Below are positions 2,308 to 59,738 of a DNA stretch of 64,000 nucleotides, piece by piece (positions within the stretch are counted from its first letter, which is position 1; the number at the start of each line of letters is the position of its first letter). This DNA is from Candidatus Liberimonas magnetica (lineage in GTDB: Bacteria; Elusimicrobiota; Endomicrobiia; Endomicrobiales; JAFGIL01): NCBI GenBank assembly GCA_020523885.1, contig JAJAPY010000006.1:62001-126000 (forward strand). The letters run 5' to 3'. The notes under the pieces were generated by a model that saw nothing but the letters and a program-made list of their open reading frames with translations, was not told the DNA's origin and ran no database searches. Made by a program: the position numbers and the translations under genes.

Positions 2308-3573
2308 TCAAGGGGTAAATTTAGAGAGTTCATTGATACCCAGAGATTTTTCTATTTCTTCAACTTGACTGGCTACCTTTTTAAACCCGCCTTTTCCAAA
2401 AACTATTTCTTCTTCTTTCTCAAATTGTTCTGCCAATCCTGCATACTCATCAGGCGGAACGATGTTACGAAACGCCGGGAATAAAACAGTGTCTTCCTGG
2501 GCTTTATGCGGCCGGTACATATTAATAAAGGCACGCAGAGAACTTGCCAATCTGTTTTTATCCGGCGCATTTTGTTGAGCCTTTATAGCATAGGTTATTT
2601 TACGCCCTGCTTTATGCTGTTCTTCAAGGGCAGCTATCATATAAGCAAGATTGTTTGTTTTACGGAACCTGTCAAAAATATATTTTTCCTCAAGAACTTC
2701 ATGGTAACCCTGGATAAAACTGCTGACAATATCGGTTGATTGGGAAAGAGGTTCAGCAGGAAACACCTCATTATTATTTATGCGCTTTATTATCTCTTCA
2801 TAAATGAGCAGCAGCCGGCTGATAACGCCATGTTCACGCATGAGGTCCTCATTGGCTGAAATCAAAGTTCCTGTTTCCTCATTCGCTTTATCGAATCTTT
2901 TTTTGACTATAGCCCAATTCAGTTTCTTAAAGAAGCTCGCAATATATTTACCCCGGTCTATCTGGTAATCTGTCATATAAGCGTGTTCAAAGACATCCAG
3001 CACCGCCAGCGGCTTTGCAGCTGCGATTTGCCCTGTATCGTGTTCAGTGACCCATACATTTATAAGTTTCCCTGTACGCGGCTCCAGGCAGAGTATGGCC
3101 CAGCCTATCCCGCGCATTGCTGCAGTTGAAGTAAAATCCTTTTTCCAAAGCTCAAAACTTCCAAAACTCTCAGTTATATTCTCATACAAAGCGCTGCCTT
3201 CTTCCGGGCCGCCCGTCCCGCCCAGGTTTTCAAAATAATATTCATGCAGCAGCGCTCCGTTAAGTTCCCATCCCAGCCTGCGTTTTAATTCTGCGTATTC
3301 CGGAGTGTTATCCTTATTATTGGCAGCTAGAATGCCAAGCTTTTCTAAAATGGAATTAGTGTTTTTTACATACCCCTGGTAAAGCTTAAAGTGATTGTTC
3401 AACAGGGTATCGCTGAAACCTTCCATACCGAGTAAGACGGAAAAATCTTTCGCCTGAATAGAAGCCGCCGAATCAGCAGGCACTGTTTTAATACGGGGAG
3501 GCACTACTGCCAGCGCGCCCGTCCCTAAGAAAATGATTAGCAAAGCAGGTATAATTTTCCTATATTCTTTCAT
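2308..3573 (-). CDS. Secreted Fe/Mn superoxide dismutase fused to a hemerythrin domain
   Basis: A 421-residue two-domain protein. Residues 1-22 form a signal peptide, so it acts outside the cytoplasm. Residues about 43-225 are an iron/manganese superoxide dismutase with all four metal ligands: H61, H110 (LLHEYYFENL), D193 and H197 (DVFEHAYMTDY). Residues about 243-370 form a four-helix hemerythrin with a full diiron set: H248, H291/E295 (HxxxE), H320 and H356/D361 (HxxxxD). The dismutase would turn superoxide to peroxide and oxygen, and the hemerythrin could bind or sense the oxygen, or shield the metal. It ends an operon PRTase-glutaredoxin-TrxB-this gene, 24 bases after trxB. Each domain call is firm; how they cooperate is inference. 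Confidence 0.88.
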   Translation of the reverse strand: MKEYRKIIPALLIIFLGTGALAVVPPRIKTVPADSAASIQAKDFSVLLGMEGFSDTLLNNHFKLYQGYVKNTNSILEKLGILAANNKDNTPEYAELKRRLGWELNGALLHEYYFENLGGTGGPEEGSALYENITESFGSFELWKKDFTSTAAMRGIGWAILCLEPRTGKLINVWVTEHDTGQIAAAKPLAVLDVFEHAYMTDYQIDRGKYIASFFKKLNWAIVKKRFDKANEETGTLISANEDLMREHGVISRLLLIYEEIIKRINNNEVFPAEPLSQSTDIVSSFIQGYHEVLEEKYIFDRFRKTNNLAYMIAALEEQHKAGRKITYAIKAQQNAPDKNRLASSLRAFINMYRPHKAQEDTVLFPAFRNIVPPDEYAGLAEQFEKEEEIVFGKGGFKKVASQVEEIEKSLGINELSKFTP

Positions 3574-42083: not shown

Positions 42084-42165
42084 TGCTTTGCCCAAAAAAA
42101 GAACCATCCATTTCAACAACGGACGGTGCAATTTTGACTTAGTCCTTCTAAAAATTCTGAATATT

Positions 42166-42274: not shown

Positions 42275-42955
42275 TTAATACAGTTGCCCGGCTTTAAAAA
42301 TAAAATATATGCCTCCTGCTATCAGAAGCAAAGCCAGAGCTTTTTTTATTTTCACCATCCAATTGCCTGATTTAGGCAAAAAGGCTAAAAAGCTGCACGA
42401 AAAACCCAATACCAATAGAAGGGTGCTCATGCCAAGAGAAAACATAAACAACAGCAGGCCTCCGCTGATTATCGCTTTTTTTGTCGCCACCAGGAGCAGC
42501 AACCCTCCAAGAACCGGCGCAGTGCACGGCGATGCTACAAGCCCTGAGCTTACACCCATAAAAAAAGGAGTAAAAAAAGAAGGTTTGTCATTTACAGCCG
42601 TACTACCGCCTAAGCCGGGCAGGGGGATATAATACCAATCCATCATGTTCCCGCCCAGGGCCAGAACCATAATGCCAAAACCAAGGTACACATAGGGGTT
42701 TGTCGTCAGGCTGCCAAACATCTTTCCGGTAAGGGCTGCTATCATGCCTAAAGCGGTGTAGACTAAAGCCAGCCCAACTACATAAAATACCGCCCCTCGT
42801 ATGCGCGCTCCTACACTTCCCGAAAAAGAACCCATGCACCCTATTACGATAGGGATAATAGGATAAACACAGGGCGTAAGAGACGTAATCACCCCTGCGA
42901 AATATACCGCTATGAATGTCCCCACTGATAAATTGCCAAGATCTATATTTAGCAT
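42275..42955 (-). CDS. CcdA/DsbD-type thiol transporter, copy 1
   Basis: A 226-residue six-span membrane protein that moves electrons from cytosolic thioredoxin to the periplasm. Redox Cys are C29 in TSLTPCVYPIIP and C144 in VASPCTAPVLGG, at the matching positions of the two inverted halves. It lacks the periplasmic domains of DsbD, like CcdA. It follows apbE by 32 bases and likely reduces the TlpA protein at 46620. The second copy (51531) has the same Cys positions, so the two loci carry parallel thiol relays. Confidence 0.92.
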   Translation of the reverse strand: MLNIDLGNLSVGTFIAVYFAGVITSLTPCVYPIIPIVIGCMGSFSGSVGARIRGAVFYVVGLALVYTALGMIAALTGKMFGSLTTNPYVYLGFGIMVLALGGNMMDWYYIPLPGLGGSTAVNDKPSFFTPFFMGVSSGLVASPCTAPVLGGLLLLVATKKAIISGGLLLFMFSLGMSTLLLVLGFSCSFLAFLPKSGNWMVKIKKALALLLIAGGIYFIFKAGQLY

Positions 42956-42987
42956 ACAATCTCACCTTGCCCACCCCGAGGGGGAGG

Positions 42988-43971
42988 CTATTTAATCTTC
43001 TCTTTACTAAATTGCTTCTCGCCTTCAGGGGATATATAAAACTTGCCGTTATTGTCTATCACTATAGTCTTATAACCCCTTTTTACCGATGCCTCATCAA
43101 AACCCTTTTCTATACCGAGCACAAAAACCGCTGTGTCCCAGGCATCGGCTTCTAAGGCGGTCGGGCTTATTACGGTGACGCTTCGGATTCCTTCCGCAGG
43201 GTAGCCTGTCTTTGGGTCTAATATATGGTGGTAACGTTTAGAACCTGTTTCTATATATTTTTCATAATCCCCGGCCGTAGAAACAGCTTCGTTTTCCGCT
43301 TCAATGATACCTACGATACCATCGCCCCGCGGGTTTTTAAGCCCTATCTTCCATTTTCTTTTTCCGTTCCTTCCAAGAGCGTAAAGCTCTCCTCCTGTAT
43401 CTACAAGAGCATTCTTGATACCGTTGTTTTTTAAAACTTTTACAGCTTCATCAGCAGCATAACCGGGTATAAGGGCTCCAAAATCCAAACCTGCGCCTTT
43501 TTTCCCTGCGCTTATTTCATCGCCGTTTATTTTTATGCCGGCATCTTTTACTAAAGAAAGCAGCTTTTTTACGTCTTCCGGTTTAGGCACGACAGGGGCA
43601 TCTCCGTAAAAGTTCCATAACTGCACCAGAGGATAAATAAGCGGGTCGAAAGCTCCGGAGCTCTCATCCTTAACCTTAAACGCATATCGTGCAACCTCGG
43701 CTATTTCTTTGTCATTTATAGGAACGCCATTTCGGTTAAATGAATAGAGCGGGCTTGAGGAGTTAAGGACATTAAACTTGGCGTCTATTTCTTCAAGGCG
43801 CCTAAAAGCATCATCAAGGGCTTTAGCTGTATTTTTTTCAGAAGCAGGTATTACTACTGAGCATTTAGTGTTGAAATAAAAACCCGTACGGGTTACAGGT
43901 TCTTTTGAACAGCCGAAAGAAAATACCGCAAAGGTAAATACAAAAAACAGCTTAACGGCCTGGCGAAACAT
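42988..43971 (-). CDS. apbE: FAD:protein FMN transferase (ApbE), lipoprotein
   Basis: A 327-residue enzyme that attaches FMN to a Thr or Ser of target proteins outside the cytoplasm. A lipoprotein signal ends at C21 (FSFGC). Family motifs: the FNTKCSVVI strand, GFAA-like GYAADEAVKVL, LVDTGGELYALG, HHILDPKTGYPA and the Mg-binding Thr/Asp line SPTALEADAWDTAVFVLG. AGGAGG lies 7 bases upstream of ATG 43971, inside the end of the preceding gene (20-base overlap). In the Listeria electron-transfer locus the same family (FmnB) flavinylates an extracellular carrier. No obvious FMN-binding domain acceptor is in this cluster. Confidence 0.93.
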   Translation of the reverse strand: MFRQAVKLFFVFTFAVFSFGCSKEPVTRTGFYFNTKCSVVIPASEKNTAKALDDAFRRLEEIDAKFNVLNSSSPLYSFNRNGVPINDKEIAEVARYAFKVKDESSGAFDPLIYPLVQLWNFYGDAPVVPKPEDVKKLLSLVKDAGIKINGDEISAGKKGAGLDFGALIPGYAADEAVKVLKNNGIKNALVDTGGELYALGRNGKRKWKIGLKNPRGDGIVGIIEAENEAVSTAGDYEKYIETGSKRYHHILDPKTGYPAEGIRSVTVISPTALEADAWDTAVFVLGIEKGFDEASVKRGYKTIVIDNNGKFYISPEGEKQFSKEKIK

Positions 43972-45118
43972 CCGGCTGCCTCCTCATAAGGTTGACAAAA
44001 ACCGCTGTAGTATAAGCTGCTGCGGTTTTAAACGTTCTTTTTCTGGCCCTGCTGCCTTTGGAAAAGAAGCTGAAGCGGGCTTTCAATTCCTTTAAATAAA
44101 ATGGGACAGCCTTAAATGTATATAAAACCTGGCTAAGGAAGCTCTTAGTGTCTATGCCGAAAACCTCAAGAGGCAGTATAAGTTTTGAAAGAAAATAAAT
44201 TAACTCTTTCTCCGGTATGGTTTTCCCGGCAACAAATGAAAGTATGAGTAGAACAACCAGTTTCGAACAGGCTGTTATTCCCTTTAAAGAACCGCTGAGA
44301 AAATCCGAGGCGCCGCCAAGGTTAACTAAAAATATAAATAACAAATAAGGAAAAGCCTTTCTTAAACTTACTGGTAAAGCTGTAAAATCTGCTCTTAATA
44401 ATAAGGCTCCTATTGATGTAAAAGCAATCAGAAGGAGTTGAACCTCTAAATTACTTATAAAAAGCCCTGCAAAAAATATAAAAGTTATAGCGATAAATTT
44501 AACTACTGAGAATATAGAATAAGAAGGAGCCGATGCCCTTATTTGAGGAACTAATTCATTGTATGCTAAGTCGCCGCTCCCGTCCCCGGGACGGAGTTTT
44601 CGGCAGATCCTTTGCGCTAAAAACCCGGTTATGTAGCCTGTTATTATGGCTGCAAACAAAAGGTATGGCACTAACCCTTTTATTAAACTAACCTGGGCAA
44701 ATAAATAATAAACCGCCGATACCTGGGCAAGGTTGTTGACTACCGCTCCTACGATGCTTATACCTATCAAACTGAACAGGTTTATACGTTTGTTTAAGTT
44801 GAACATAACTCCCATCGCTGCCGCACTTGCCAGGGCTCCTGAAAAACTTAATACAAAACCTGAAGACAGGAAAGTTCCAATGATGAGAGAGCTAACTATA
44901 GATCTGATAGCCGCGACATACATCCCGCTTTCGGCCCCAAACCTTACAATGGCTATTATTGTGACAAGGTTGGCAAACCCGACTTTCATTCCGGGCAAGG
45001 GCATGGGTATAAATGACTCTGTCAGCTGCAAAACGCTTGCAATCGCAGCTAAAAATCCTATTTGCAGAACACTGGAATTATAAGGTTTATTATCGAGCTC
45101 TTTAGTATGTGACAGCAT
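43952..45118 (-). CDS. Gx transporter (EetB-like) fused to an EcfT-like transmembrane module (FmnA-like)
   Basis: A 388-residue polytopic membrane protein. The N-terminal half (about residues 15-170) matches the Gx transporter/'heptaprenyl diphosphate synthase component I' family (LTESFIPMPLPGMKVGFANLVTIIAI, shown here in shortened form: PLPGMKVGFANLV), the family of Listeria EetB. The C-terminal half (about 205-388) looks like an EcfT/CbiQ transporter subunit (LLILSFVAGKTIPEKELI, LPLEVFGID), as in FmnA. In Listeria these are separate genes. ATG 45118 has an AAGGAAGG site close upstream, overlapping the NusG-II gene by 17 bases; a start at 45151 lacks one. Probably moves flavin or its precursor across the inner membrane; inferred. 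Confidence 0.75.
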   Translation of the reverse strand: MLSHTKELDNKPYNSSVLQIGFLAAIASVLQLTESFIPMPLPGMKVGFANLVTIIAIVRFGAESGMYVAAIRSIVSSLIIGTFLSSGFVLSFSGALASAAAMGVMFNLNKRINLFSLIGISIVGAVVNNLAQVSAVYYLFAQVSLIKGLVPYLLFAAIITGYITGFLAQRICRKLRPGDGSGDLAYNELVPQIRASAPSYSIFSVVKFIAITFIFFAGLFISNLEVQLLLIAFTSIGALLLRADFTALPVSLRKAFPYLLFIFLVNLGGASDFLSGSLKGITACSKLVVLLILSFVAGKTIPEKELIYFLSKLILPLEVFGIDTKSFLSQVLYTFKAVPFYLKELKARFSFFSKGSRARKRTFKTAAAYTTAVFVNLMRRQPDVSPGR

Positions 45119-45503
45119 CAAACCTTCCTTCATGCCCGTTTTTAATTTCAATCGTCAACTTATTAGGCACGCATACGATAGCTTCCCCAGGGCCATTGAT
45201 CCACCCCCAATGCCTGCATAACCCTTTAGGGCAAGCTGAATCAGCCACATGAATACTTCCGTTAAGGACTTCAAGCTTAATAGCTCCTTTTAATCCGTTT
45301 ATTTCCGTAATGCCGTTTCTAGCAAGCTGTATTTCGCTGTACAAAGAACCGTTTTGCTTTACAACCGCTGTTTGCCCGGCATAAGCGCCATTCCCTGCCA
45401 AAACCAGGAACAAGGCAGCAGAAAACACAAGCAAGATAACAAGCATATCCGCAATACGTAAACTACCGCTGTATGATGTTGGAACGCCTTCGGAAACACG
45501 CAT
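45102..45503 (-). CDS. NusG domain II protein (EetA-like), membrane-anchored
   Basis: A 133-residue protein with an N-terminal membrane span (about 20-38) and an exported beta domain. The NusG-II signature is clear: ADSACPKGLC (C91, C96) then HWGWINGPGEAIVCVPNKLTI (split here as GWINGPGEAIVC, C111, and VPNKLTIEI). In Listeria monocytogenes this family (EetA) sits next to EetB and is needed for extracellular electron transfer. Here too it precedes the EetB-like gene, with an overlap. The three conserved Cys suggest a metal or disulfide role and could be clients of the TlpA/CcdA relay nearby. Confidence 0.85.
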   Translation of the reverse strand: MRVSEGVPTSYSGSLRIADMLVILLVFSAALFLVLAGNGAYAGQTAVVKQNGSLYSEIQLARNGITEINGLKGAIKLEVLNGSIHVADSACPKGLCRHWGWINGPGEAIVCVPNKLTIEIKNGHEGRFDAVTY

Positions 45504-45510
45504 ATTATGC

Positions 45511-46620
45511 CTATTTGAATTTTATAGTCGTGCTTATGTATAATATCTGCGCAACGAGGTCTTTCTTCGATACAGATTGATAGATTTTTGCATGGTCCAG
45601 GTTTGAAACATGAAAATACCGCTCATACATTATATCTACAAACACACCGCTTACCGCCTGTATCTGCAGACCGGTTCCATAGAGGTACGAGGAAAAATCT
45701 GAAAGTTTCGGGTCTGCGCTGATGAAACGCTCTTCTTCGGTGTATGAGTTCTTAAAAAAAGACGCTCCCATCTGCCTGCAATACCTGCCCCTGAGCGAAC
45801 CCATTATAGCCTTTGAAAGGTACCTGGTGTATTTTGCTCCGAACGTATTTGAATGAACATCCCAGTTGTCATAATAGTACCTGTAGTCAAATTGCACGGA
45901 AGATATCCTGGGTTCTTCCCGTCCTAGTATGTAAAATAATCCCAGAGCAGCCCTGTCCCGCACCGAGGGATGCCTCTCCGTAAAATAATATTCATTTATC
46001 AATACCCTGTGGTACGGGTTGCTAAGATAACCGTCATCCCGTTCATAGGTCCCCACAACTCTCATCTGAGAGCGGGGAGTAAGCACGCTTGTGAATGCCA
46101 GGTCATATATTTTCGATATCTTTTTATCAGTCCAGGCAACTCCGAAAGGGAACAATTTATCGCTGTAATCAGAATAAGCAAATGTTATGGCTTTATTCCT
46201 TGAATCAAACTCGCTGGTCCAGGAAACAAAAAAGGAATCCGAGGCATAATCGTCTTCGCCGCTGGTGTCGCCGGAAACAGTCAACGTATTGTTCTTTATT
46301 TTCTGCGTTAATCCCAGAGAGACTTCTCTGCGGTATTCCCTGGTAACATTGCCTATGTGCGGAGTGGCGCTTGTCAGGCCGTCAAGGAGCGGTATTTTGC
46401 GGGAGGCCGCGCTTATGCCATCTATTATCCTTGAAGCCGTCAGGGTTGTCTTTGGCCCCACATCAACAGCTGCGTCAATACCCTCGGTAATAACATCAAC
46501 CTGGTCATCATCAGTGTACGTGACATATTTTATTCCGACCTTCCGCTCAGCTTCTGCATAGGATATATAAAATAGGAGCGTTAATGTCAATAGTAAAAGG
46601 GTTTTTTGTCCGTTCAACAC
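45511..46620 (-). CDS. DUF3570 outer membrane beta-barrel protein
   Basis: A 369-residue outer membrane protein with signal peptide (to about residue 24) and alternating beta strands with Tyr/Phe girdles to the last residue (LYISTTIKFK). The DUF3570 features are visible: a GISAASRKIPLLDGLTSATP region and repeated YYD/YRYY turns. The start is GTG at 46620, sharing one base with the TlpA stop (TAGTG). DUF3570 genes are regularly found with DUF4266, TlpA-like and ApbE genes, as here, and may form the outer membrane part of that module. Function unknown. Confidence 0.82.
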   Translation of the reverse strand: MLNGQKTLLLLTLTLLFYISYAEAERKVGIKYVTYTDDDQVDVITEGIDAAVDVGPKTTLTASRIIDGISAASRKIPLLDGLTSATPHIGNVTREYRREVSLGLTQKIKNNTLTVSGDTSGEDDYASDSFFVSWTSEFDSRNKAITFAYSDYSDKLFPFGVAWTDKKISKIYDLAFTSVLTPRSQMRVVGTYERDDGYLSNPYHRVLINEYYFTERHPSVRDRAALGLFYILGREEPRISSVQFDYRYYYDNWDVHSNTFGAKYTRYLSKAIMGSLRGRYCRQMGASFFKNSYTEEERFISADPKLSDFSSYLYGTGLQIQAVSGVFVDIMYERYFHVSNLDHAKIYQSVSKKDLVAQILYISTTIKFK

Positions 46621-47156
46621 TATTTTTTACCTGCTTTTTTATCAATTTTTTTAGCCGGCTTTATAGTATCTTTCATGGCTGCGAAAACCTCTTCGAAATT
46701 TGCCGGAGGCCGGGAATCCATAAACCTGATTTTGCCCTCGCCATCTACGATTATATTGGAAGGAAAACCTACAAGCCCGTAGTCTTTCGCTACCGAAGCG
46801 CTGGAATCAAGCAGGACAGGAAACGGCAGCTGATTCTTTTCGATGAATTTCTTTACTTTTGCAGGGTTTTCCTGGACATTAATACTGACAACATCTAACC
46901 CTTTGCTTTTATAATTTTGATATAGCTCTTTTAATTGGGCCATCTCTTCAATGCAGTTCTCGCACCAGGTAGCAAAAAAGTTTAAAAAAATAATATTCTT
47001 ACCTTTATGTTTTTCAAGAGAGTAAGTATTCCCCTTCAAATCTTTCAGCGAAAAATCAGGAGCGTTATCGCCCACTTTTATATCTGCAAAAACTAAACCA
47101 ACCGTAATCAGTAAAGATAGAATTATTGCTGCCGCTCTTAATAATTTATTGCTCAT
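46620..47156 (-). CDS. TlpA-like periplasmic thioredoxin, copy 1
   Basis: A 178-residue exported thioredoxin-fold protein with signal peptide (to about residue 24) and active site WCENC (C65/C68) in FFATWCENCIEE, then the VGFPSNIIVDGEG cis-Pro region. It ends in a Lys-rich tail. It would receive electrons from the CcdA at 42275 and reduce Cys of proteins such as the NusG-II protein or DUF4266 product. Between this gene and the DUF4266 gene lies a 193-base gap with palindromic ATTCGAAATT repeats. Confidence 0.9.
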   Translation of the reverse strand: MSNKLLRAAAIILSLLITVGLVFADIKVGDNAPDFSLKDLKGNTYSLEKHKGKNIIFLNFFATWCENCIEEMAQLKELYQNYKSKGLDVVSINVQENPAKVKKFIEKNQLPFPVLLDSSASVAKDYGLVGFPSNIIVDGEGKIRFMDSRPPANFEEVFAAMKDTIKPAKKIDKKAGKK

Positions 47157-47178
47157 TTTACCTCCCTTATTTTAACTT

Positions 47179-47220
47179 AATTTCGAAACTGCAATTTCGA
47201 ATATCGAAAAAAACTGCAAT
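47179..47220 (-). repeat. 42-bp intergenic repeat, copy 1 (minus strand)
   Basis: Reads on the minus strand as ATTGCAGTTTTTTTCGAT followed by ATTCGAAATTGCAG and TTTCGAAATT, directly upstream of the ribosome site of the TlpA gene. The same element lies just upstream of the genes at 58824 and 59864. Confidence 0.6.
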
Positions 47221-47349
47221 ATTCAATATTCAAACAGACAAACCTGCTTCAAATCAATTTTTTTAAAGTGTTCTTTTATACAGTTTCTTTTTGCCGTTTT
47301 GCCTTATTGGTTATTTTTTCGAAATTCTATATTCGGAATTCGAAATTCT

Positions 47350-47583
47350 TTATTTGCAGCCGCAGCCGCCTCCGGCTCCGCCGTAGCCGCCGCTCGAGGC
47401 TTCACGGGAACTAAGCATATGCTGCTCGTAGGTATTTCCTTCATTTTCCGTAATAAACTGCATAGCGGGGTCAGCCAAAAGCCCCTTCTGCCACGGGGAA
47501 ACGCTTGAACAACCTGAAAAAAATAGCGCAAGAAATATTATTCCAGCTAATAATATGAATCCGGATTTAGTAAGAATTTTCAT
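47350..47583 (-). CDS. DUF4266 small lipoprotein
   Basis: A 77-residue lipoprotein (lipobox Cys C25, FFSGCSS) with the DUF4266 core VSPWQKGLLADPAMQF and EQHMLSSREASSGG, ending in a Gly-rich GGAGGGCGCK with two more Cys. The family is always small and is found with DUF3570, TlpA and ApbE genes. It may be a periplasmic or outer membrane anchored cofactor carrier. It is the first gene of the 47.6-42.3 kb cluster. Its C-terminal Cys pair could be a TlpA substrate. Confidence 0.88.
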   Translation of the reverse strand: MKILTKSGFILLAGIIFLALFFSGCSSVSPWQKGLLADPAMQFITENEGNTYEQHMLSSREASSGGYGGAGGGCGCK

Positions 47584-47634
47584 TTGTTTCCCTTCGTTTT
47601 ATTTATTCTTTTATTTTATTGCCTTTTTGCCGGT

Positions 47635-47667
47635 CACTGGTAACTGGTAACTGATTACTGTTCACTG
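47635..47667. repeat. Short simple repeat (GGTAACT / GTTCACTGT type)
   Basis: CACTGGTAACTGGTAACTG followed by ATTACTGTTCACTG lies between the lipoprotein stop at 47670 and the DUF4266 start. Looks like replication slippage; no function seen. Confidence 0.4.
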
Positions 47668-47669
47668 TT

Positions 47670-50600
47670 TCAAGGTGTATAATCCGCTGAAAACGATGTT
47701 ACAAACCCGCCGCCGGTAGCTGTAGAGTTTGCTGCGGAGTTGCCAAGAGTAATATTTCCGGTAAAAGTTGATTCCCCGCCTCCCTCCCGCCGGATAGCTA
47801 TCCTGTAGCGGTAAGTCCCGGGAGCTACTACTGTGCCGGCTGAATTTCTGGGCGGCGTCCAGTTTACGTTAAAACTGCCGGACGGTTTAGATGCCCCTGT
47901 AGTCCCGTTAGTTACTCCGCCTGATTTTGAAAACCAAGTAGGCAAGTCGCTGGAATTGCTCGATGCATGGCTGGAAATAAACAATGTGCGCACAAATGCG
48001 CCGACAGAATCTTCTATCCAGACAGCTTCCTGAGGCTGGTTGCCTGTGAAACTCAGGGTGCAGTGCACAATTGCAGCGCTAAGCGAATCCGGTTTAACTG
48101 CGGCCGCTGTTATGGTAAGGGTAGTAGTCACTGCGCTTCCCCAGTTATTTAAAGCGTCACGGCCGTGCACATAGATAGTGTGCGCCGCCACGCTCAAGGC
48201 TGAAACGTTTATTGAGCCTGTTACAGCTTCCGAGGCAGAATTAAAGGCCCCATCTTGAGCGCTGAGCGCTGTTCCTGCCCCGTTAGCGCCCTGGGTATCC
48301 ACAAAATATTCCGCAGCCGTTATATTAGACCCTCCGGCGGCTGCATCCGAGACCGTAGCGGTAAGGGCTGCGCTTGTGGCGCCTGCAGTAGGATTAGGGG
48401 TTATATTTAAACTAGATGAGACAGGCCCTGTAGTATCCGGGGCAGCAGATACAGTTAAAGATATACTCTGAGCAGCGCCCCAGTTGTTTAAAGCGTCCTG
48501 TCCGTGTACAAATACCGTGTGAGCGCCGGCGCTTAACAATGAAACATTTATAGAACCTGTAACGGTTTCCGCTGTTGAGTTGAATGCCCCGTCCTGGGCT
48601 GAAAGGGCTGTTCCTGCGCCATTTGCCCCCTGGGTATCTATAAAATATTCCGCAGCCGCGATATTAGATGCTCCTGTAGACACCTCTGAAATGCTTGCGG
48701 TGAGAGTGACAGTTAGAGCTCCTGCTGTGGGATTGGGCGTTATATTCAAAGCGGAGGCCGCAGGCCCTGTTGTGTCTGCCGCGGATTTAGTCAAGGATAC
48801 GCTCTGTGCTGTGCCCCAATTTCCAAAGGCATCCCGGCCGTGTACAAAAACCGTATGAGCCCCCAGGCTTAAGGACGCAACACTAATAGAGGCTGTGACC
48901 GCTTCATTCGGAGAATTAAATACACCGTCCTGGGATGACAGGGCTGTGCCTGTTCCGTTTGCACCCTGGGTATCTATAAAATATTCCGCCGCCGCGATAT
49001 TAGCCCCGCCTGTAGTTACGTCTGAAACCGTGGCGGTAAGAGTAACGCTCGCTGCTCCTGCTGTCGGGTTTGGAGTTATATTTTGGCCGGAAGTTATGGG
49101 CCCCGCGGTATCTGCCGCGGATACGGTCAATGTTACGCTTTGAGACGCGCCCCAGTTATTTAAAGCATCGCGGCCGTGCACGAACACGGTATGAGAACCT
49201 GCGCTTAATAACGAAATATTAACAGTACCCGTAACCGCTTCAGTAACCGCGCTAAAGGTTCCGTCCTGGGCAGCCAGGGCTGTGCCGGTCCCGCCCGCGC
49301 CCTGGGTATCTATAAAATATTCCGCAGCGGCGATATTAGAATTGCCCGTATTTGCATCTGAAATCGTAGTTGTAAGAACGGCGCTTGCGGCTCCCAGGGT
49401 CGGGTTTGGAGTTATACTTGAGCCGGAGGTAAGGGGGCCAAGGGTATCGCTGCCGCCGCCCGCGGAAACCGTAAATGTAACTGAGACAAACGGCCCCCAG
49501 TTATTTGACGAATCTTTCCCGTGCACATAAACCGTGTGCAGGCCCGCGCTCAAACCGGAAACCGAGACTATACCGTTAACGCTTTCTGTAACGTTGTTAA
49601 AGAGCCCGTCCTGGGCAGTAAGAACCGTTCCTGTCCCGCTTGTGCCCTGAGTATCAAAAAAACATTCAGCAGCCGAGATATTAGAACTGCCTGCAGTCAT
49701 GTCCGAAACCGTGGCTGTTATATTCACAGCAGTTGCGCCGGCAGTAGGATCAGGCGAAACTGTTAAAGCAGTTGTAACCGGGCCGGACGTGTCTCCCGCG
49801 GATGTTACATTAAAAGAAATGGATAGTACAGCGCCCCAATTGTTCGCCGCATCCCGGCCATGCACTATAAGAGTATGATTGCCCATAGTCAGGCCGGATA
49901 CTGAAGCAGAACCTGTCACATTTTCAGTAACTGAATTAAAAGAACCATCCTGGGCAGAAAGAGCCGTTCCTGCTCCGTTTGCGCCCTGGGTATCAAAAAA
50001 ATATTCCGCTGCGATGATGTTGGAACCTCCGGCGCTTATGTCCGAGACAGCAGCCGTTATAGTTACAATTGCGGCTCCTGCGGTAGGGTTAGGGGTAAGG
50101 CTTAACCCCGAGGTAACAGGGCCGGTTGTATCTCCGGCGCTTGCGGATATAGTTAGAGAAATAGATTGTATAGGCCCCCAGTTGTTCGCAGCATCACGGC
50201 CGTGTACTAACAGTGTGTGATTTCCCAGGGACAGGCCTGTGACCAAAATAGAACCCGATACATTTTCTGTAACCGAATCAAAACCGCCGTCAAGAGCGGA
50301 AAGAGCGGCGCCGGTACCGTTTGCTCCCTGGTTATCAAAAAAACATTCAGCGGCTGTAACGTTTGAATTCCCTGTAGCCGCGTCAGAGACAACGGCTGAA
50401 ACCGTTATCGAAGACGCTCCGGCGTTAGGATTAGGCGAGGCAGAAAGGCCAGACACCTGCGGGCCTATACTATCTATGCCAAGGCTTTCCGTAATAAAAG
50501 TTTGCACGGACGAAACTACGCTGTTGCCCAGGGGATCAAAACTGGCGGCTTTATAATAATATGTAGTTCCAGGGTTAAGGCTGCTTAAACTTACGTTGTG

Positions 50601-50903
50601 AACAACTGTCTGGGTTGTTATAATAACCTCGCTTCCCAGGTTCACCGATGTCCCGTAGTTTACTTTAGAACCCGCAGGTTTTTGAGTCCGCCAGGAAATT
50701 ATAGCCGTGTTATTTGTTATAGCGGATGCGAAAAGTTCGGTTATGACAGGTTTCTGAACCGCATTATTAGGCCGGTCCGGCACAGGAAGAAGCTGGCGGA
50801 AAACTTCGCAGCCTGTGAAATTTAAAAGCATATAACATAAAATTAACGCAAAAGCCGCAGGGCCTAACTTTAGCGTGATGAAAAAGAGTTTTAATAATTT
50901 CAT
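47670..50903 (-). CDS. Large repetitive lipoprotein: FN3, seven Ig-like repeats, DUF2271-like C-terminus
   Basis: A 1077-residue lipoprotein (lipobox Cys C32, NFTGC). A fibronectin type III-like domain follows (about 45-140, with NPGTTYYYKA), then seven repeats of roughly 105-110 residues, each with TPNPTAGA, AEYFxDTQGANGxGTAL, SAQDGxFNS and VHGRDAxNNWG. The last 140 residues (AVWIEDSVGAFVRTLF ... GTYRYRIAIRREGG) match DUF2271, a periplasmic family that accompanies ApbE genes. So the product is an adhesin-like surface rod with a redox-locus-type end. The repeats are highly alike at DNA level, so copy number may vary. No ribosome site is visible; promoter H predicts a nearly leaderless mRNA. 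Confidence 0.8.
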   Translation of the reverse strand: MKLLKLFFITLKLGPAAFALILCYMLLNFTGCEVFRQLLPVPDRPNNAVQKPVITELFASAITNNTAIISWRTQKPAGSKVNYGTSVNLGSEVIITTQTVVHNVSLSSLNPGTTYYYKAASFDPLGNSVVSSVQTFITESLGIDSIGPQVSGLSASPNPNAGASSITVSAVVSDAATGNSNVTAAECFFDNQGANGTGAALSALDGGFDSVTENVSGSILVTGLSLGNHTLLVHGRDAANNWGPIQSISLTISASAGDTTGPVTSGLSLTPNPTAGAAIVTITAAVSDISAGGSNIIAAEYFFDTQGANGAGTALSAQDGSFNSVTENVTGSASVSGLTMGNHTLIVHGRDAANNWGAVLSISFNVTSAGDTSGPVTTALTVSPDPTAGATAVNITATVSDMTAGSSNISAAECFFDTQGTSGTGTVLTAQDGLFNNVTESVNGIVSVSGLSAGLHTVYVHGKDSSNNWGPFVSVTFTVSAGGGSDTLGPLTSGSSITPNPTLGAASAVLTTTISDANTGNSNIAAAEYFIDTQGAGGTGTALAAQDGTFSAVTEAVTGTVNISLLSAGSHTVFVHGRDALNNWGASQSVTLTVSAADTAGPITSGQNITPNPTAGAASVTLTATVSDVTTGGANIAAAEYFIDTQGANGTGTALSSQDGVFNSPNEAVTASISVASLSLGAHTVFVHGRDAFGNWGTAQSVSLTKSAADTTGPAASALNITPNPTAGALTVTLTASISEVSTGASNIAAAEYFIDTQGANGAGTALSAQDGAFNSTAETVTGSINVSLLSAGAHTVFVHGQDALNNWGAAQSISLTVSAAPDTTGPVSSSLNITPNPTAGATSAALTATVSDAAAGGSNITAAEYFVDTQGANGAGTALSAQDGAFNSASEAVTGSINVSALSVAAHTIYVHGRDALNNWGSAVTTTLTITAAAVKPDSLSAAIVHCTLSFTGNQPQEAVWIEDSVGAFVRTLFISSHASSNSSDLPTWFSKSGGVTNGTTGASKPSGSFNVNWTPPRNSAGTVVAPGTYRYRIAIRREGGGESTFTGNITLGNSAANSTATGGGFVTSFSADYTP

Positions 50904-50910
50904 ATTTTAT

Positions 50911-50971
50911 ATTATGTCATTTTCATTAAAGGTGGATAAGTGTCACTTTCTTTAATTAACTGACTTATTTC
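50911..50971 (-). promoter_or_regulatory. Shared-motif promoter H (DUF2271 lipoprotein)
   Basis: GAAATAAGTCAG at 50971-50960, 9 bases, GAA at 50950-50948, ACACTTA, -35 TTATCC (50939-50934), 17 bases, -10 CATAAT (50916-50911). Transcription would begin about base 50904, one base before the ATG at 50903. Confidence 0.62.
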
Positions 50972-51013
50972 TACATCATCTTTGCGCCTCCCCCGTCCCC
51001 GGGACGGGAAGGG

Positions 51014-51463
51014 CTATTTAAATGTATAATTTTTAGGCGGCCTTGCGCCCTTATAAACTATATCGCCGCTTCTACCTATAATTATGGTGGCCGGCAACCC
51101 GTCCAGGTTGAAGAGCTTTGCTGTTTTATTACCGGCGTCCTTTAACACTAAATACGGATAATTGTTTTTGTTTACAAAATACTTGATTTTACTTTCACTT
51201 TCCCCCAGGTTAATGCCTATAAAAACAGCGTTCTCCGAGCCCGGGCTTGTCTTCAGGGCATCCAGTTCAGGTATCTCCTCTCTGCAGGACGAACACCAGG
51301 AGGCCCAGAAGTTTATAACAATTGTTTTTTTGCCGATAAGCTTTCCTGCGTCGAATATTTTGCCGTTCAGCTTTTCAAGCGAAAACGCAGGCGCCTTTTC
51401 CGCATAAGCAGGCACGGTAAATAATAAAATTGACAAAACAAGGATTAAAATAATATTCTTCAT
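51014..51463 (-). CDS. TlpA-like periplasmic thioredoxin, copy 2
   Basis: A 149-residue exported thioredoxin-fold protein; signal peptide to about residue 21 (VPAYA), active site WCSSC at C57/C60 (FWASWCSSCREE), and GLPATIIIGRSG cis-Pro region. It follows the second CcdA gene (67-base gap with a simple repeat), so the pair is a self-contained thiol relay. Its client may be the exported Cys proteins of the cluster or the neighbouring lipoprotein. Paralogue of 46620-47156 but clearly diverged. Confidence 0.9.
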   Translation of the reverse strand: MKNIILILVLSILLFTVPAYAEKAPAFSLEKLNGKIFDAGKLIGKKTIVINFWASWCSSCREEIPELDALKTSPGSENAVFIGINLGESESKIKYFVNKNNYPYLVLKDAGNKTAKLFNLDGLPATIIIGRSGDIVYKGARPPKNYTFK

Positions 51464-51487
51464 ATAAATTTCCCTTCACAGCCAATC

Positions 51488-51532
51488 GTTCATTGTTCAT
51501 TGTTCATTGTTTATTGTTAATTGTTAATTGTT
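51488..51532. repeat. Simple tandem repeat, 7-base unit
   Basis: About six imperfect copies of TTCATTG/TTAATTG (GTTCATTGTTCATTG and so on) between the TlpA and CcdA genes. A slippage-prone tract in the spacer of a two-gene unit, just before the start of the TlpA gene. Confidence 0.55.
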
Positions 51533-52211
51533 ATGACAAATGCCCTGCCATAAAAATATAGTATACACCTGAACTTACAAGAGCAAAACCAAGAAGCCTT
51601 TTTAAACGCAGTATCCATATGTAGGTTTTAGGCAGGCCTTCAAGAAACGCCGCAAGAGCGCCTATAAAAAAAAGGATGGTAGCCATTCCCATAGAGTATG
51701 CCAGCATTAGTAACCAGCCTGCAACAGTTGCTTTATTCCCGGCCATAAAGGACAAAAGAGAGCTTAAGCCCGGCGTGGCACAGGGCGAAGCCACAAGGCC
51801 TGTGCAGGCTCCAACAATAAACGGGCCCCAGAAGTGCAGTTCGCTTCCGAAAAGCTTTACCTCATCTAATTCAGTAACATTGATATCATAACAACCTATT
51901 ATGTTGCCGCCCAGAGCTAAAATTAAGATACCGAATGCCAGGTACACATATTGGTTAGTTGTAAGGGAGCCGAAAATCCTGCCGGTATAAACAGTAGCCA
52001 TAGCAATAAAAGTGTAGCAAAGCGCAAGCCCAAGGACATAAAACAGCGCTGCCCTTATACGGTCCGCGGTATTTCCCGAGCGAGAACCTATAAAACCGGC
52101 CGTAACAGGTATAACAGGGTAGATGCAGGGGCCAAAGGACGAAGCTATCCCTGTAATATAAATTGAAATAAACGTCATTAAGGATAAATTGTTAAAATCC
52201 AGATTCTGCAT
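51531..52211 (-). CDS. CcdA/DsbD-type thiol transporter, copy 2
   Basis: A 226-residue six-span protein with the same size and Cys layout as the copy at 42275: C29 in SSFGPCIYPVIP and C144 in VASPCATPGLS. The shared lines GSLTTNxYVYLxFGI and LALGGNxx show common descent. It transfers reducing power to the TlpA protein encoded next. Upstream (52261-52314) lies a perfect 19-bp inverted repeat element rather than a recognisable promoter. Confidence 0.92.
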   Translation of the reverse strand: MQNLDFNNLSLMTFISIYITGIASSFGPCIYPVIPVTAGFIGSRSGNTADRIRAALFYVLGLALCYTFIAMATVYTGRIFGSLTTNQYVYLAFGILILALGGNIIGCYDINVTELDEVKLFGSELHFWGPFIVGACTGLVASPCATPGLSSLLSFMAGNKATVAGWLLMLAYSMGMATILFFIGALAAFLEGLPKTYIWILRLKRLLGFALVSSGVYYIFMAGHLS

Positions 52212-54066: not shown

Positions 54067-57000
54067 ATGAAGAGTAAAATGTTGTTGAAAGCAGTTGTCG
54101 CAGCGTTGTTGTTTTTTGTAGGGCTGTCAAACATCAGCCCGGTGGCGTTAGAAGCATTCACTAGCACGCCTACACAAGACCCGACTTTAATACCAAAATA
54201 TGTGGACCCGTTAGTTGTACCGCCTGCTATGCCAAAGACCTCTACAACGGCCGCAGAAGACTATTATGAAATATCAACAAAACAGTTTTCCCAGCAGGTG
54301 CTTCCCACAGGCATGCCCCAAACCACTGTCTGGGGTTACGGTTCAGTCCAGAACCCTGGAACTTTTAATTATCCGGCATTTACCATTGAAGCAACTGTCA
54401 ATAAACCAGTCCGCGTTAAATGGGTAAACGGACTTGTGGATGCAACCGGGAATTATCTTCCCCATCTTTTGCCTGTTGACCAGACGATAGATTGGGCAAA
54501 CCCTCCCGGGGGTACCATGGGCAGAGATATGGTAGGCACTGACCCTACATCTTATACAGGCCCAGTTCCTTTAGTAGTTCATGCGCACGGGGTACACACA
54601 AATCAGGAAAGCGACGGCTACGCTGAAGCCTGGTACCTGCCGGCAGCTAACAACATCCCAGCCGGTTACGCGACAGAAGGTACTTATTTTAACCCAAATA
54701 AAACTAAATCGAAGTTCGGATACCAGTGGGGTGCTGGAGCCGCTGTTTTTGATTACCCGAATGATCAGAACGCGGCAACAGCATGGTACCACGACCACGC
54801 AATGGGCATGGATAGATTAAATGTATATGCAGGACTTGCTGGGTTTTACCTTATAAGAGGCGGTGCGGGCGATGTCGTGACCACAAAAACAGGAGCAGCG
54901 GCAGTGCTTCCAGGCCCAGCGCCTACAACGACCAATACAGGCTGTTTTGAGATACCTTTAGCTATTCAGGACAAGTCTTTCAACTCGGATGGCTCCTTAT
55001 TTTATCCGGACAGCCGGCTTTATTTTGACGCTTTCGCTGGGCCTTACGCCCCCACTTCGGATATAGCGCCGATATGGAACCCGGAGTTTTTTGGCAATAC
55101 GATGCTGGTTAACGGCAAGACCTGGCCGTACCTTACGGTTGAAGCGAAACGTTACCGTTTCCGCATTGTAAACGGCTGCAACTCCCGTATGCTTCTTCTA
55201 CAATTCGACAATAACATGCCTTTCTGGCAAATAGGAGCTGAAGGCGGTTTCTTAAGCCTTAACCCGGTCCAGCGCACACAGATGCATATGGGCAACGGTG
55301 AAAGGGCTGATGTTATAGTAGATTTTACGAACGTACCAGTCGGCACTAACGTAATTATGCAGAACATCGGAGCTGACGCGCCTTTCACAGGCGTCCCCGG
55401 AGTTGATTTTGTAAGCGCAGACCCGGCCACGACCGGACAGGTCATGCAGTTTCGGGTAGTGGCAGCAACAAGCCCGGACCTGAGCACCCCTCCGGATCAA
55501 CTCGTGCTTCCGGCAAGGACCGATCTAGGAGCTGTTAATAATACCAGGCAGATATCCCTTAATGAAATGAGTTCAAACGTCCTGCCCGGCATAGGCCCCA
55601 GGATGGCTTTAATGGGAACAGTAGACCTTTCAATTTCGACATCACCGGTTGGAGTTCCCAAATTATGGAGCGACGCAGTTACAGAAAACCCGGCTTTAAA
55701 CGCCACAGAGATCTGGGAAATGTATAATTTTACAGTAGACGCTCACCCTGTGCATATTCATCAGGTTCAATTTGAAGTGGTGAACAGGGAGATATTTGAC
55801 CCTGCCGCAGGAGTAGTGGGAACGATAAATCCCCCAGAACTCTGGGAAAGCGGCACAAAAGATACGGTCGTTTCTTACCCGGGCCAGATAACTCGTGTCA
55901 AGGCAAAGTTTGATGTCCCGGGCCTTTTTGTATGGCATTGCCACATATTAGAACACGAAGAGAACGAGATGATGAGGCCGATGTTCATAGGAGCTATGCC
56001 CAGCACATCCACTGTTGCCAGCGCAAGCGTAATCCCTGTTGCCAATGACGCGGCAACGATACCTAAATATGTAGACCCCCTGGTTGTGCCGCCGGCTATG
56101 CCGACAACAACAACCAGCGCAACTGAAGACTATTACGAAATATCCACGAAGCAGTTTAGCCAGCAGGTTTTGCCTACAGGCATGCCAAAAACCACTGTCT
56201 GGGGATATGGCTCCGTACAGAATCCGGGAACATTCAACTACCCGGCATTCACTATTGAAGCGAAAGCCAACAAACCGGTCCGCGTTAAGTGGATAAACGG
56301 CCTTGTGGACGCCAGCGGAAACTACCTCCCCCATCTTTTGCCCGTTGACCAGACTATACACTGGGCAAACCCTGCAGCAGGGCTGACAGGCAGAGATTCA
56401 CCGGGAACTGACCCGGCCTCTTATACAGGGCCTGTTCCTTTAGTCGTTCACGCGCACGGCGTGCACACAAACCAGGAAAGCGACGGTTACGCTGAAGCGT
56501 GGTATCTGCCGGTTGCAAATAACATACCTACTGGTTATGCAACTGTAGGAACCTGGTACGACCTCAATAAGAGTTTATCAAAATTCGGTTCGCAGTGGGC
56601 TGGAGGAGCCGCTGTTTTTGATTATCCAAATGACCAGGCAGCAGGTACGGCCTGGTACCACGATCATGCTATGGGTATGGATAGATTGAATGTCTATGCG
56701 GGCCTTGCGGGGTTCTACCTCATAAGAGGCGGAGCAAGCGACATAGTGACAACAAAAGCCGGAGGAGCTGCTGTTCTTCCCGGTCCGGCTCCGACAACAA
56801 CAAATACGGGCTGTTTTGAAATACCTTTGGCTATACAGGATAAATCTTTCAACGCCGACGGTTCTTTGTTCTATCCGAACACCAGGGCTTTCTTTGATGG
56901 TTTCACCGGCCCTTATGCTCCTCAATCCGATATAGCTCCGATATGGAACCCTGAATTTTTCGGCAATACGATGCTGGTTAACGGCAAGACCTGGCCGTAC

Positions 57001-58647
57001 CTTACGGTTGAACAAAAACGTTACCGTTTCCGTATCGTGAACGGCTGCAACTCCCGTTTACTATTGTTAAAGCTTGACAACAACCTGCCTTTCTGGCAGA
57101 TAGGAGCAGAAGGCGGCTTCTTAAGCTCTCCTGTTTCCCTTACCCAGTTGCTTATAGGTAATGGAGAGCGTGCAGATGTCATAGTGGATTTCACGAACGT
57201 CCCGGCAGGAACCAACGTCATGATGCAGAACATAGGAGCTGATTCCCCGTTCGTTCCGGGAACTACTTTTACACCTGCTGATCCCAACACAACCGGACAG
57301 GTCATGCAGTTTCGGGTAGTAGCAAAAACAAGCCCGGACTTAAGCACGCCTGCTGACCAGCTGGTCTTGCCCGCGAGAACACCTCTTGGTGCTGTCAATA
57401 TGGCAAGGCAGATATCCCTAAACGAAATGGATTCTAACGTACTGACAGGCGTAGGCCCCAGGATGGCTCTGCTTGGTAAAGTAGACCTTACAGGCCCGAC
57501 ACCGGTTGGTGTGCCTAAGATGTGGAAAGATACTGTAACTGAAGACCCTGATCTGGGTTCAATAGAGCAATGGGAAATATATAACTTCACTGTGGACGCT
57601 CACCCTGTGCACATTCATCAGGTCCAGTTTGAAGTGGTCAACAGGGAAGTCTTTGATCCCGCGGCAGGAATAGTGGGAACGGTCAAGCCTCCTGAGGTCT
57701 GGGAAAGCGGCGGAAAAGATACCCTCATCGCTTATCCCGGAGAGATAACGCGCGTCAAAGCGAAATTCGATATACCGGGAATATTTGTCTGGCACTGCCA
57801 TATCCTGGAACACGAAGAAAACGAGATGATGAGGCCGTTTTTCGTAGGTGAAATTACCAGCACGACCACGATAGCCAATATAACCATGTACCCTGAACCC
57901 GACGAGGTAGAATTACCCTCTGAGTTCGGGCCTGTACAGCTCCAGATATCCTCGGGCACATTTGCGCAGCATGTCACTCTTACAATAGCTACCGTTACTG
58001 TGACTACAGCCGTGGTTCCGCCTACTACGCCTACAACTACGACTACGACTACGTCTACGGCTACGGTTACGACTACCGTTACGCCTGTGACTACGGTCAT
58101 ACCCACTCCTAAGCAGAAGAACCTAAAAGTCAGCAAAGTAGTTGTAAATATAAACAACAAGCAGAATTTACAGCCGGTAAAACCTATCACTGTTACTATG
58201 ACTTACAAGCCCGCTAATGTCACAGGTATGAATACAAAGAAGCTGTCCCTCGCGGCCTACAATCCTGCAACGGCCACCTTTGTTCCGATACCGTCAAAGG
58301 TAAATACTACAACGGGTAAGGTTACGGGAAAGATAAAACATTTCTCGATCTATGCGATAGTTGAGCTTGTGCCTGAGGTAGACCTCGGTAAAGTCAAAGT
58401 ATATCCTAACCCGTTCGACCCTAACATTACGGATGTCACTATAGGCAACCTGACAAGTGCAGCGGACATAAGGATCTATACTATAACCGGTGAGCTGGTT
58501 AGAAGACTTGACTACAATTCGGCTGACGGTCTGGTTACATGGGACGGAACTAATGACTCAGGCAGTAAGGTCGCAAGCGGTATATATCTTGCGCTTATAA
58601 ACGGTTCTGAAGGCAAAAAGGTAGTAAAAATAGCAGTAGAAAAGTAA
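54067..58647 (+). CDS. Giant tandem multicopper oxidase with C-terminal sorting-type domain
   Basis: A 1526-residue exported protein made of two full multicopper oxidases in a row (about residues 42-648 and 665-1268), offset about 1870 bases and very alike even at DNA level. Each copy has all four copper motifs: HAHGVH, WYHDHAMG, HPVHIHQV and VWHCHILEHEENEMM; in copy 1 the first ligands are H172/H174 and H242/H244. A Thr/Pro linker follows, then a domain ending with YPNPFDP (1446-1452) and an FlgD-like Ig fold, the kind of C-terminus used for PorV/type IX-like export. It probably oxidises metals (Mn, Cu, Fe) or phenols at the cell surface. GGAGG precedes the ATG. Confidence 0.92.
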   Translation: MKSKMLLKAVVAALLFFVGLSNISPVALEAFTSTPTQDPTLIPKYVDPLVVPPAMPKTSTTAAEDYYEISTKQFSQQVLPTGMPQTTVWGYGSVQNPGTFNYPAFTIEATVNKPVRVKWVNGLVDATGNYLPHLLPVDQTIDWANPPGGTMGRDMVGTDPTSYTGPVPLVVHAHGVHTNQESDGYAEAWYLPAANNIPAGYATEGTYFNPNKTKSKFGYQWGAGAAVFDYPNDQNAATAWYHDHAMGMDRLNVYAGLAGFYLIRGGAGDVVTTKTGAAAVLPGPAPTTTNTGCFEIPLAIQDKSFNSDGSLFYPDSRLYFDAFAGPYAPTSDIAPIWNPEFFGNTMLVNGKTWPYLTVEAKRYRFRIVNGCNSRMLLLQFDNNMPFWQIGAEGGFLSLNPVQRTQMHMGNGERADVIVDFTNVPVGTNVIMQNIGADAPFTGVPGVDFVSADPATTGQVMQFRVVAATSPDLSTPPDQLVLPARTDLGAVNNTRQISLNEMSSNVLPGIGPRMALMGTVDLSISTSPVGVPKLWSDAVTENPALNATEIWEMYNFTVDAHPVHIHQVQFEVVNREIFDPAAGVVGTINPPELWESGTKDTVVSYPGQITRVKAKFDVPGLFVWHCHILEHEENEMMRPMFIGAMPSTSTVASASVIPVANDAATIPKYVDPLVVPPAMPTTTTSATEDYYEISTKQFSQQVLPTGMPKTTVWGYGSVQNPGTFNYPAFTIEAKANKPVRVKWINGLVDASGNYLPHLLPVDQTIHWANPAAGLTGRDSPGTDPASYTGPVPLVVHAHGVHTNQESDGYAEAWYLPVANNIPTGYATVGTWYDLNKSLSKFGSQWAGGAAVFDYPNDQAAGTAWYHDHAMGMDRLNVYAGLAGFYLIRGGASDIVTTKAGGAAVLPGPAPTTTNTGCFEIPLAIQDKSFNADGSLFYPNTRAFFDGFTGPYAPQSDIAPIWNPEFFGNTMLVNGKTWPYLTVEQKRYRFRIVNGCNSRLLLLKLDNNLPFWQIGAEGGFLSSPVSLTQLLIGNGERADVIVDFTNVPAGTNVMMQNIGADSPFVPGTTFTPADPNTTGQVMQFRVVAKTSPDLSTPADQLVLPARTPLGAVNMARQISLNEMDSNVLTGVGPRMALLGKVDLTGPTPVGVPKMWKDTVTEDPDLGSIEQWEIYNFTVDAHPVHIHQVQFEVVNREVFDPAAGIVGTVKPPEVWESGGKDTLIAYPGEITRVKAKFDIPGIFVWHCHILEHEENEMMRPFFVGEITSTTTIANITMYPEPDEVELPSEFGPVQLQISSGTFAQHVTLTIATVTVTTAVVPPTTPTTTTTTTSTATVTTTVTPVTTVIPTPKQKNLKVSKVVVNINNKQNLQPVKPITVTMTYKPANVTGMNTKKLSLAAYNPATATFVPIPSKVNTTTGKVTGKIKHFSIYAIVELVPEVDLGKVKVYPNPFDPNITDVTIGNLTSAADIRIYTITGELVRRLDYNSADGLVTWDGTNDSGSKVASGIYLALINGSEGKKVVKIAVEK

Positions 58648-58823: not shown

Positions 58824-59738
58824 ATGAAAAAGGTATTAGCGGTCATGGTAAGCTTGGTCATCTTAGCAGGTCAAAGCTCGGTATTTGCAGCAGGTTCAAA
58901 CGCAGGCAAATCAACAGCGCAGTTTTTGCAGCTTGGTGTAGGAGCGCGCGCTGAAGGTATGGGCGAGGCATACACAGCCTCGGCTGTCGGCGCTGATGCG
59001 GTGTACTGGAACCCGGCAGGGATCGCGGGCATTGAAAAAAACGAGGCATCTTTTACCCAGGCCATGTGGATACAGGATATCTCATACCAGGCTGCTGTTG
59101 GAGCCTTTCCCACCAAGCATGGCGCCTTCGCGATAGGGCTTAAGTACCTTTCCTACGGAAGCATAAAGAAAACTGACGACACGGGCCTTGAGACCGGCGA
59201 TTTTTCGCCTAATGACTTGATGGCTGGCGTGTCTTACGGCAGAGAATTCGGAAAGTTAAAAGCAGGCATAACCGTAAAATATATATCTTCAAAGATAACG
59301 AATACAGCCACAGCAGTGGCAGGCGATATCGGTTTCAAATACCCGTTCATGGATGACAAACTTATCATAGGGCTTGCAGGCATGAACATGGGCACCAAGA
59401 TGAAGTTCGTTAACGAGGAAGACCCTCTTCCCTCAACTGGTAAATTCGGCGTAAGCTACATGCCCGGAGGTCTGTGGCTCATCGCTCTTGACGCAAACAT
59501 GCCAAACGACGATGACGCCTACGCAAATGCCGGAATAGAGAAGAAATTCCAGCTGGGTGATATCTCGCGCCTTGCCCTGCGCGCAGGCTACAACACCCGG
59601 ACCAAGGACATAACCGGTACACAGGGCGTTACCGCCGGAGTAGGTTTCGGCTATAAACAGCTCGATCTTGACGTCGCCTTCGCTCCTTACGGTGACCTGG
59701 GCAATATAACTCTTGTCAGCCTGGGCGTTAAGTTCTAG
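58824..59738 (+). CDS. PorV/PorQ-family outer membrane protein
   Basis: A 304-residue beta-barrel with signal peptide (to about residue 22). The family start is clear: STAQFLQLGVGARAEGMGEAY (here given as LGVGARAEGMGEAY), then AVYWNPAGIAGI, and it ends in a terminal Phe. PorV shuttles type IX substrates with C-terminal sorting domains to the surface. It lies 176 bases after the multicopper oxidase, whose C-terminus is of that kind, so the two probably work together. No other type IX component is visible in the window. Confidence 0.88.
   Translation: MKKVLAVMVSLVILAGQSSVFAAGSNAGKSTAQFLQLGVGARAEGMGEAYTASAVGADAVYWNPAGIAGIEKNEASFTQAMWIQDISYQAAVGAFPTKHGAFAIGLKYLSYGSIKKTDDTGLETGDFSPNDLMAGVSYGREFGKLKAGITVKYISSKITNTATAVAGDIGFKYPFMDDKLIIGLAGMNMGTKMKFVNEEDPLPSTGKFGVSYMPGGLWLIALDANMPNDDDAYANAGIEKKFQLGDISRLALRAGYNTRTKDITGTQGVTAGVGFGYKQLDLDVAFAPYGDLGNITLVSLGVKF

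Follow-up and report, generated by a model that had tools for sequence, protein, structure and literature searches.

A putative envelope flavin-and-thiol redox locus with a fused EetB–EcfT protein in Candidatus Liberimonas magnetica

In many bacteria, the route by which FAD reaches periplasmic ApbE is an open question. It is raised in a diderm by a 64,000-nucleotide stretch of Candidatus Liberimonas magnetica (phylum Elusimicrobiota; assembly GCA_020523885.1, contig JAJAPY010000006.1, positions 62,001 to 126,000; hereafter the window), in which EetA, EetB, an EcfT-like protein and the flavin transferase ApbE are encoded beside thiol-relay and envelope proteins. An earlier interpretation made from the letters alone (the sequence-only reading) saw here a Gram-negative redesign of the Listeria route of extracellular electron transfer (EET). 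The genes are indeed present, and the redesign does not hold. We consider it probable that the locus encodes a redox system of the cell envelope that works with flavins and thiols and supplies its own cofactor, and in which a dedicated flavin exporter would be tied to a thiol-driven flavinylation system.

Gene cluster and candidate flavin carriers

The cluster consists of 10 genes, all on the minus strand and spanning 42275-52211, in a host genome of 3.39 Mb that is 97.8% complete. They are transcribed in the order CcdA2, TlpA2, DUF2271 lipoprotein, DUF4266, TlpA1, DUF3570, NusG_II/EetA, EetB-EcfT, ApbE and CcdA1. Pfam assignments of the seven families named by the sequence-only reading were each above the curated cut-off. 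Listed by position, the features are:

42103..42127, minus strand: intrinsic-terminator-like hairpin at the operon end, 3' of CcdA1 (10-pair stem and T tract; fold z = -4.5)
42275..42955, minus strand: CcdA1 (DsbD_TM), membrane thiol relay (Pfam 7e-36; conserved paired Cys29 and Cys144)
42988..43971, minus strand: ApbE flavin transferase, sole ApbE of the genome (Pfam 6e-74; lipobox FSFGC)
43952..45118, minus strand: fusion of an EetB part (RibU-like S domain) with an EcfT half that is diverged, truncated and devoid of Ala-Arg-Gly signatures (Pfam EetB 2e-33; EcfT by profile comparison)
45102..45503, minus strand: EetA/NusG_II, membrane-anchored (Pfam 4e-24; three conserved Cys, CPxxxC...IVCVPN)
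45511..46620, minus strand: DUF3570, exported (Pfam 1e-33; flavin motifs altered to SAAS and TSAT)
46620..47156, minus strand: TlpA1, thioredoxin-like, exported (Pfam TlpA-like 3e-32; WCENC)
47350..47583, minus strand: DUF4266 small lipoprotein (Pfam 2e-18; CGCK at the C-terminus)
47670..50903, minus strand: lipoprotein of 1077 amino acids (aa) with an fn3-like domain, seven Ig-like repeats and a C-terminal DUF2271 (Pfam DUF2271 5e-13; TGAS)
51014..51463, minus strand: TlpA2, thioredoxin-like (Pfam; WCSSC)
51531..52211, minus strand: CcdA2 (DsbD_TM; Pfam 2e-25)

From TlpA1 through CcdA1 the genes overlap or nearly abut, with frame overlaps at TlpA1/DUF3570, NusG_II/EetB and EetB/ApbE. Since the hairpin and its T-run follow CcdA1, the cluster looks like a single transcription unit. 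Above cut-off, the genome holds one ApbE, one NusG_II, one DUF3570 and one DUF2271. The seven families named by the sequence-only reading were all confirmed at the positions it gave, closely packed in a minus-strand operon. Its limits for the locus (42275-47583) were too narrow: the cluster continues to 52211, and the DUF2271 lipoprotein, TlpA2 and CcdA2 had been missed. A polyprenyl synthase of the DmkB family (1223-2035), which it had also counted in, lies ~40 kb away and is not linked to the locus in the window. At 270 aa this synthase is short, and it has the two Asp-rich motifs. In several diderms a related gene directly precedes NusG_II-EetB; loci L042, L045, L081 and L087 are among those where it flanks the pair.

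Both DUF2271 and DUF3570 have been flavinylated experimentally by ApbE at [S/T]GA[S/T] (PMC8238504). The window DUF2271 carries the exact motif, TNGTTGAS (TGAS being aa 1002-1005), and it is kept in the relatives L044 and L061. The domain stands at the end of the protein, beyond seven Ig-like repeats of ~112 aa each (a period-336 repeat in the DNA), and this arrangement suggests that the Ig stalk gives the flavin domain its reach; the counterpart in a sister order (genome G029, locus L061) is shorter (507 aa). At the DUF3570 sites the window has SAAS and TSAT, L044 has SAAS and TGAT, and L061 has SGAS and TGAT. Because the window sites are without Gly, DUF2271 appears to be the likelier and safer candidate for the flavin carrier. 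The flavin site of RnfD in the same genome (L105:7448-8437) is VSTATP, again without the usual Gly, so the genome's single ApbE may tolerate the altered sites of DUF3570.

We read EetA-EetB-EcfT as a cofactor supply and not as an electron wire, by analogy with Listeria: there EetB and FmnA export FAD and carry no electrons, EetB binding FAD and exporting it for ApbE, and deletion of eetA has no EET phenotype (PMC9973259). In the proposed scheme, FAD would leave the cytoplasm via EetB-EcfT together with EetA. The lipoprotein ApbE would take FMN from FAD and link it covalently to DUF2271 at TGAS, a reaction known for the family; as the only ApbE in the genome, it might also flavinylate DUF3570 (at TSAT/SAAS) and RnfG/RnfD. 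The wire itself would be made of thiols and flavin. The conserved Cys pairs point to a path for reducing equivalents that starts at cytosolic thioredoxin, runs via CcdA1/CcdA2 to TlpA1/TlpA2 (WCxxC) and the CXC of DUF4266 (CGC), and leads from there to the flavins. From the flavin at the tip of the seven-Ig stalk, electrons would then pass to a periplasmic or cell-surface acceptor; DUF3570 would be the likely outer-membrane partner. In homologues from all phyla seen, EetA/NusG_II has three near-invariant Cys; they could be redox-active or metal-binding and may here meet the TlpA/CcdA relay.

Could EetA-EetB-ApbE instead be an all-purpose set for flavin maturation of the Rnf complex, its placement among DUF3570 and TlpA genes being incidental? 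The genome does carry a complete Rnf operon on contig 16 (L105), its RnfG has TGAT, a single ApbE is available for all substrates, and eetB is often near Rnf in Clostridia (PMC9973259). We regard this as quite improbable, for the operon itself contains a perfect-motif DUF2271 plus DUF3570, its overlapping frames suggest co-translation, and EetAB is joined to the same module in a second Elusimicrobiota family.

The proposed self-supplied redox chain could also end beyond the outer membrane and reduce minerals or an electrode, that is, perform true EET. The stalked flavin lipoprotein would suit such a role, and related diderm loci of the type NusG_II-EetB/EcfT-barrel-ApbE-FMN_bind adjoin multihaem cytochromes of the OmcA/MtrC type. 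Nevertheless, none of the predicted open reading frames (ORFs) of the window contains a CXXCH haem motif. The sole FMN_bind protein that the genome has above cut-off is RnfG, on another contig, and a PplA-like one was not found. For some genomes, a role in iron assimilation has been proposed for DUF3570 clusters (PMC8238504), and a thiol donor fits periplasmic reduction equally well. True EET thus seems to us rather unlikely here. A rebuilt Listeria EET locus was ruled out, since a PplA-like FMN_bind protein is missing and the backbone is that of the separately published DsbD-type system.

The cytochrome-linked loci (L090, L096, L097 and L101) come from Desulfobacteraceae and other proteobacterial metagenome-assembled genomes. 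Their EetB/EcfT-barrel-ApbE-FMN_bind operons directly adjoin the cytochromes, NusG_II was called in L090 and L096, and those checked have an upstream cytochrome or cytochrome b561. As cases of diderm EET involving EetAB, they are stronger candidates than the window itself.

The fused exporter and its missing ATP coupling

The sequence-only reading had the EetB and EcfT parts in one protein, and this was borne out. The N-terminal half matches Pfam Hpre_diP_synt_I (the EetB/Gx family, PF07456) at residues 34-181 of frame 43952-45151 (2e-33). In an AlphaFold model of the fused protein (pLDDT 77), the S half resembles riboflavin S components (TM 0.71 against TmRibU). By family match and predicted fold, the EetB half is thus of the energy-coupling factor (ECF) S component type.

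The C-terminal half is more difficult. Compared alone with Pfam CbiQ, as had been proposed as a check, the half in the window copy gives no match even at E=10, and Foldseek did not place EcfT among its top 50 matches. At the family level the same check succeeds. Full-length fused relatives match CbiQ (best 3e-21), in most of those tested at roughly positions 2-160 of the 216 in the C half. A profile of 18 fused relatives including the window protein matches the EcfT of crystal structure 4HUQ at positions 181-395 (1.2e-31), and hhalign of the fused family against bona fide EcfTs gave a probability of 99. Since these relatives can be aligned with the window protein from one end to the other, its C half is an EcfT homologue by descent as judged from profiles, and a non-EcfT origin is ruled out for the family. 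An ORF or assembly artefact is ruled out as well: the fusion occurs as single frames of ~345-450 aa in 17 of 295 sampled Elusimicrobiota genomes and in several other phyla. EetB/ECF-T fusions have been reported before (PMC9973259); the fusion is not new and is the usual form in the diderms sampled here.

T units dock their ATPases through two Ala-Arg-Gly signatures, the most conserved feature across these proteins (PMC3246461). Aligned with true EcfTs, the fused protein has the first signature replaced and stops before the second, and neither was found in any of the 18 fused proteins aligned. A search of the host genome revealed neither a further EcfT nor an ECF ATPase above cut-off, the best TIGR04520 match scoring 163 bits against the 315 required; the top eight ATPase candidates are of other ABC types, for example PstB and MlaF-, LolD-, MsbA- and UgpC-like proteins. 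Two Omnitrophota and several other fusion-bearing Elusimicrobiota genomes likewise gave no ECF ATPase match below 1e-60, and some other fusion-bearing hosts did, including cobalt-type candidates.

The flavin pump therefore seems to be left without the usual ATP motor. The EcfT half might hold the S domain in place as a fixed scaffold instead of working as a normal ATP-coupled T unit. Tentatively, and with doubts that outweigh our confidence, we propose that diderm EetB-EcfT fusions form a distinct class of flavin exporter without ECF ATPases, in which the T half is a built-in membrane scaffold and consumption of the cofactor by ApbE outside, not ATP, drives transport. The same losses could mean that the fusion is not an active exporter at all: it might carry flavin slowly and independently of ATP, bind flavin as a chaperone for ApbE, or be in decay. 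The EcfT half of the window copy, the most diverged among the fused proteins aligned, and its long branch in the EetB tree would agree with this. Against it, the fusion is retained with ApbE in several phyla, so the family as a whole is not decaying; the cobalt-type ECF ATPase candidates of some hosts and possible substitution by another ABC ATPase also argue for a working exporter. We think a non-exporter unlikely.

Association of the modules in Elusimicrobiota

Is the union of exporter and DUF3570 module a matter of chance? ApbE occurs in 98 of the 295 Elusimicrobiota genomes, in 15 of the 17 that bear EetB (p = 2e-6) and in all 12 that bear DUF3570 (p = 1e-6). Both families thus track ApbE, and chance co-occurrence in relatives is not the case.

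The gene order in G029 is DUF2271-DUF4266-TlpA-DUF3570-ApbE-second ApbE-CcdA. DUF3570 and ApbE directly adjoin there, EetAB is absent from the cluster, and copies of EetAB lie elsewhere. The first ApbE of this cluster is the closest to the window ApbE (58% identity). The second (L061:6499-7500), between ApbE and CcdA, is distant, at 29% to the window ApbE. In another Elusimicrobiota family (genome G024, contig MGVS01000049) the order is DUF2271-DUF4266-TlpA-DUF3570-ApbE-NusG_II-EetB. Here EetAB follows ApbE, whereas in the window it lies between DUF3570 and ApbE, and the G024 ApbE belongs to a different clade. Given this other clade and other gene order, the simplest reading is that EetAB and the DUF3570 module were probably joined twice separately.

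Several points weigh against the proposed redox system that supplies its own cofactor. With neither Ala-Arg-Gly signatures nor ECF ATPases in the genome, export itself is uncertain. The window DUF3570 does not have two [S/T]GA[S/T] motifs, the acceptor Ser/Thr being kept and the Gly lost, and a structure model from two sequences (pLDDT 27) did not resolve its fold or reveal a barrel. The direction of electrons and their acceptor are putative. Allowing for ApbE, EetB and DUF3570 are not significantly associated across the 295 genomes (p = 0.27). The window EetB is not securely placed in its tree and, together with horizontal transfer, this may leave doubt about two joinings.

The flanks of the region encode two very large multicopper-oxidase-like proteins (window 54067-58647 and L106:385-4437). 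The former has FlgD_ig/Por_Secre_tail at its end and a PorV-like gene (58824-59738) after it, which hints at secretion of a type IX-like kind. A hemerythrin domain fused with Fe/Mn superoxide dismutase is encoded at 2308-3573.

Comparison with known systems

The locus combines the DsbD/TlpA/DUF4266/DUF3570/ApbE flavinylation system, published separately by Méheust et al. in 2021 (PMC8238504), with a putative EetA-EetB-EcfT exporter set inserted between DUF3570 and ApbE. The partners of EetB systems named in the main text of PMC9973259 are Rnf, EET, MsrQ-like and NapH-like proteins, and not DsbD/DUF3570. In the literature searched, supplements apart, we did not find the union of exporter and DsbD/DUF3570 system, a stalked DUF2271 carrier inside it, or a consistent loss of the Ala-Arg-Gly signatures in fusions. 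What seems to be new is thus the pairing of EetAB-EcfT with the DsbD/DUF3570 system, the loss of these signatures in every fused protein and the Gly-less DUF3570 motifs. The locus also names a probable flavin carrier, the stalked DUF2271 lipoprotein, appears to present an exporter without the usual ATP coupling, and points to diderm loci where the same exporter adjoins MtrC/OmcA cytochromes.

With the Listeria EET locus (PMC9973259) the cluster has in common EetA and EetB homologues accompanied by ApbE. Listeria has PplA and linked dmk genes, and the window cluster has neither; compared with Listeria EetB/FmnA, the window EcfT half is truncated and without Ala-Arg-Gly signatures, in a genome where no ECF ATPase was found above cut-off. 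The DsbD-type DUF3570 system (PMC8238504) is closer: ApbE, DUF3570, a thioredoxin-like protein, DUF4266 and DsbD/CcdA are clustered there as in the window, which adds EetA-EetB-EcfT, a second CcdA/TlpA pair and the stalked DUF2271 lipoprotein, and whose DUF3570 motifs are without the Gly of [S/T]GA[S/T]. Finally, the NusG_II-EetB/EcfT-barrel-ApbE-FMN_bind loci of Omnitrophota, Desulfobacteraceae, KSB1 and others share with the window the fused exporter, NusG_II, ApbE and an outer-membrane-type protein. Their substrate is FMN_bind, in some cases with OmcA/MtrC cytochromes, whereas the window has DUF2271/DUF3570 and a thiol relay.

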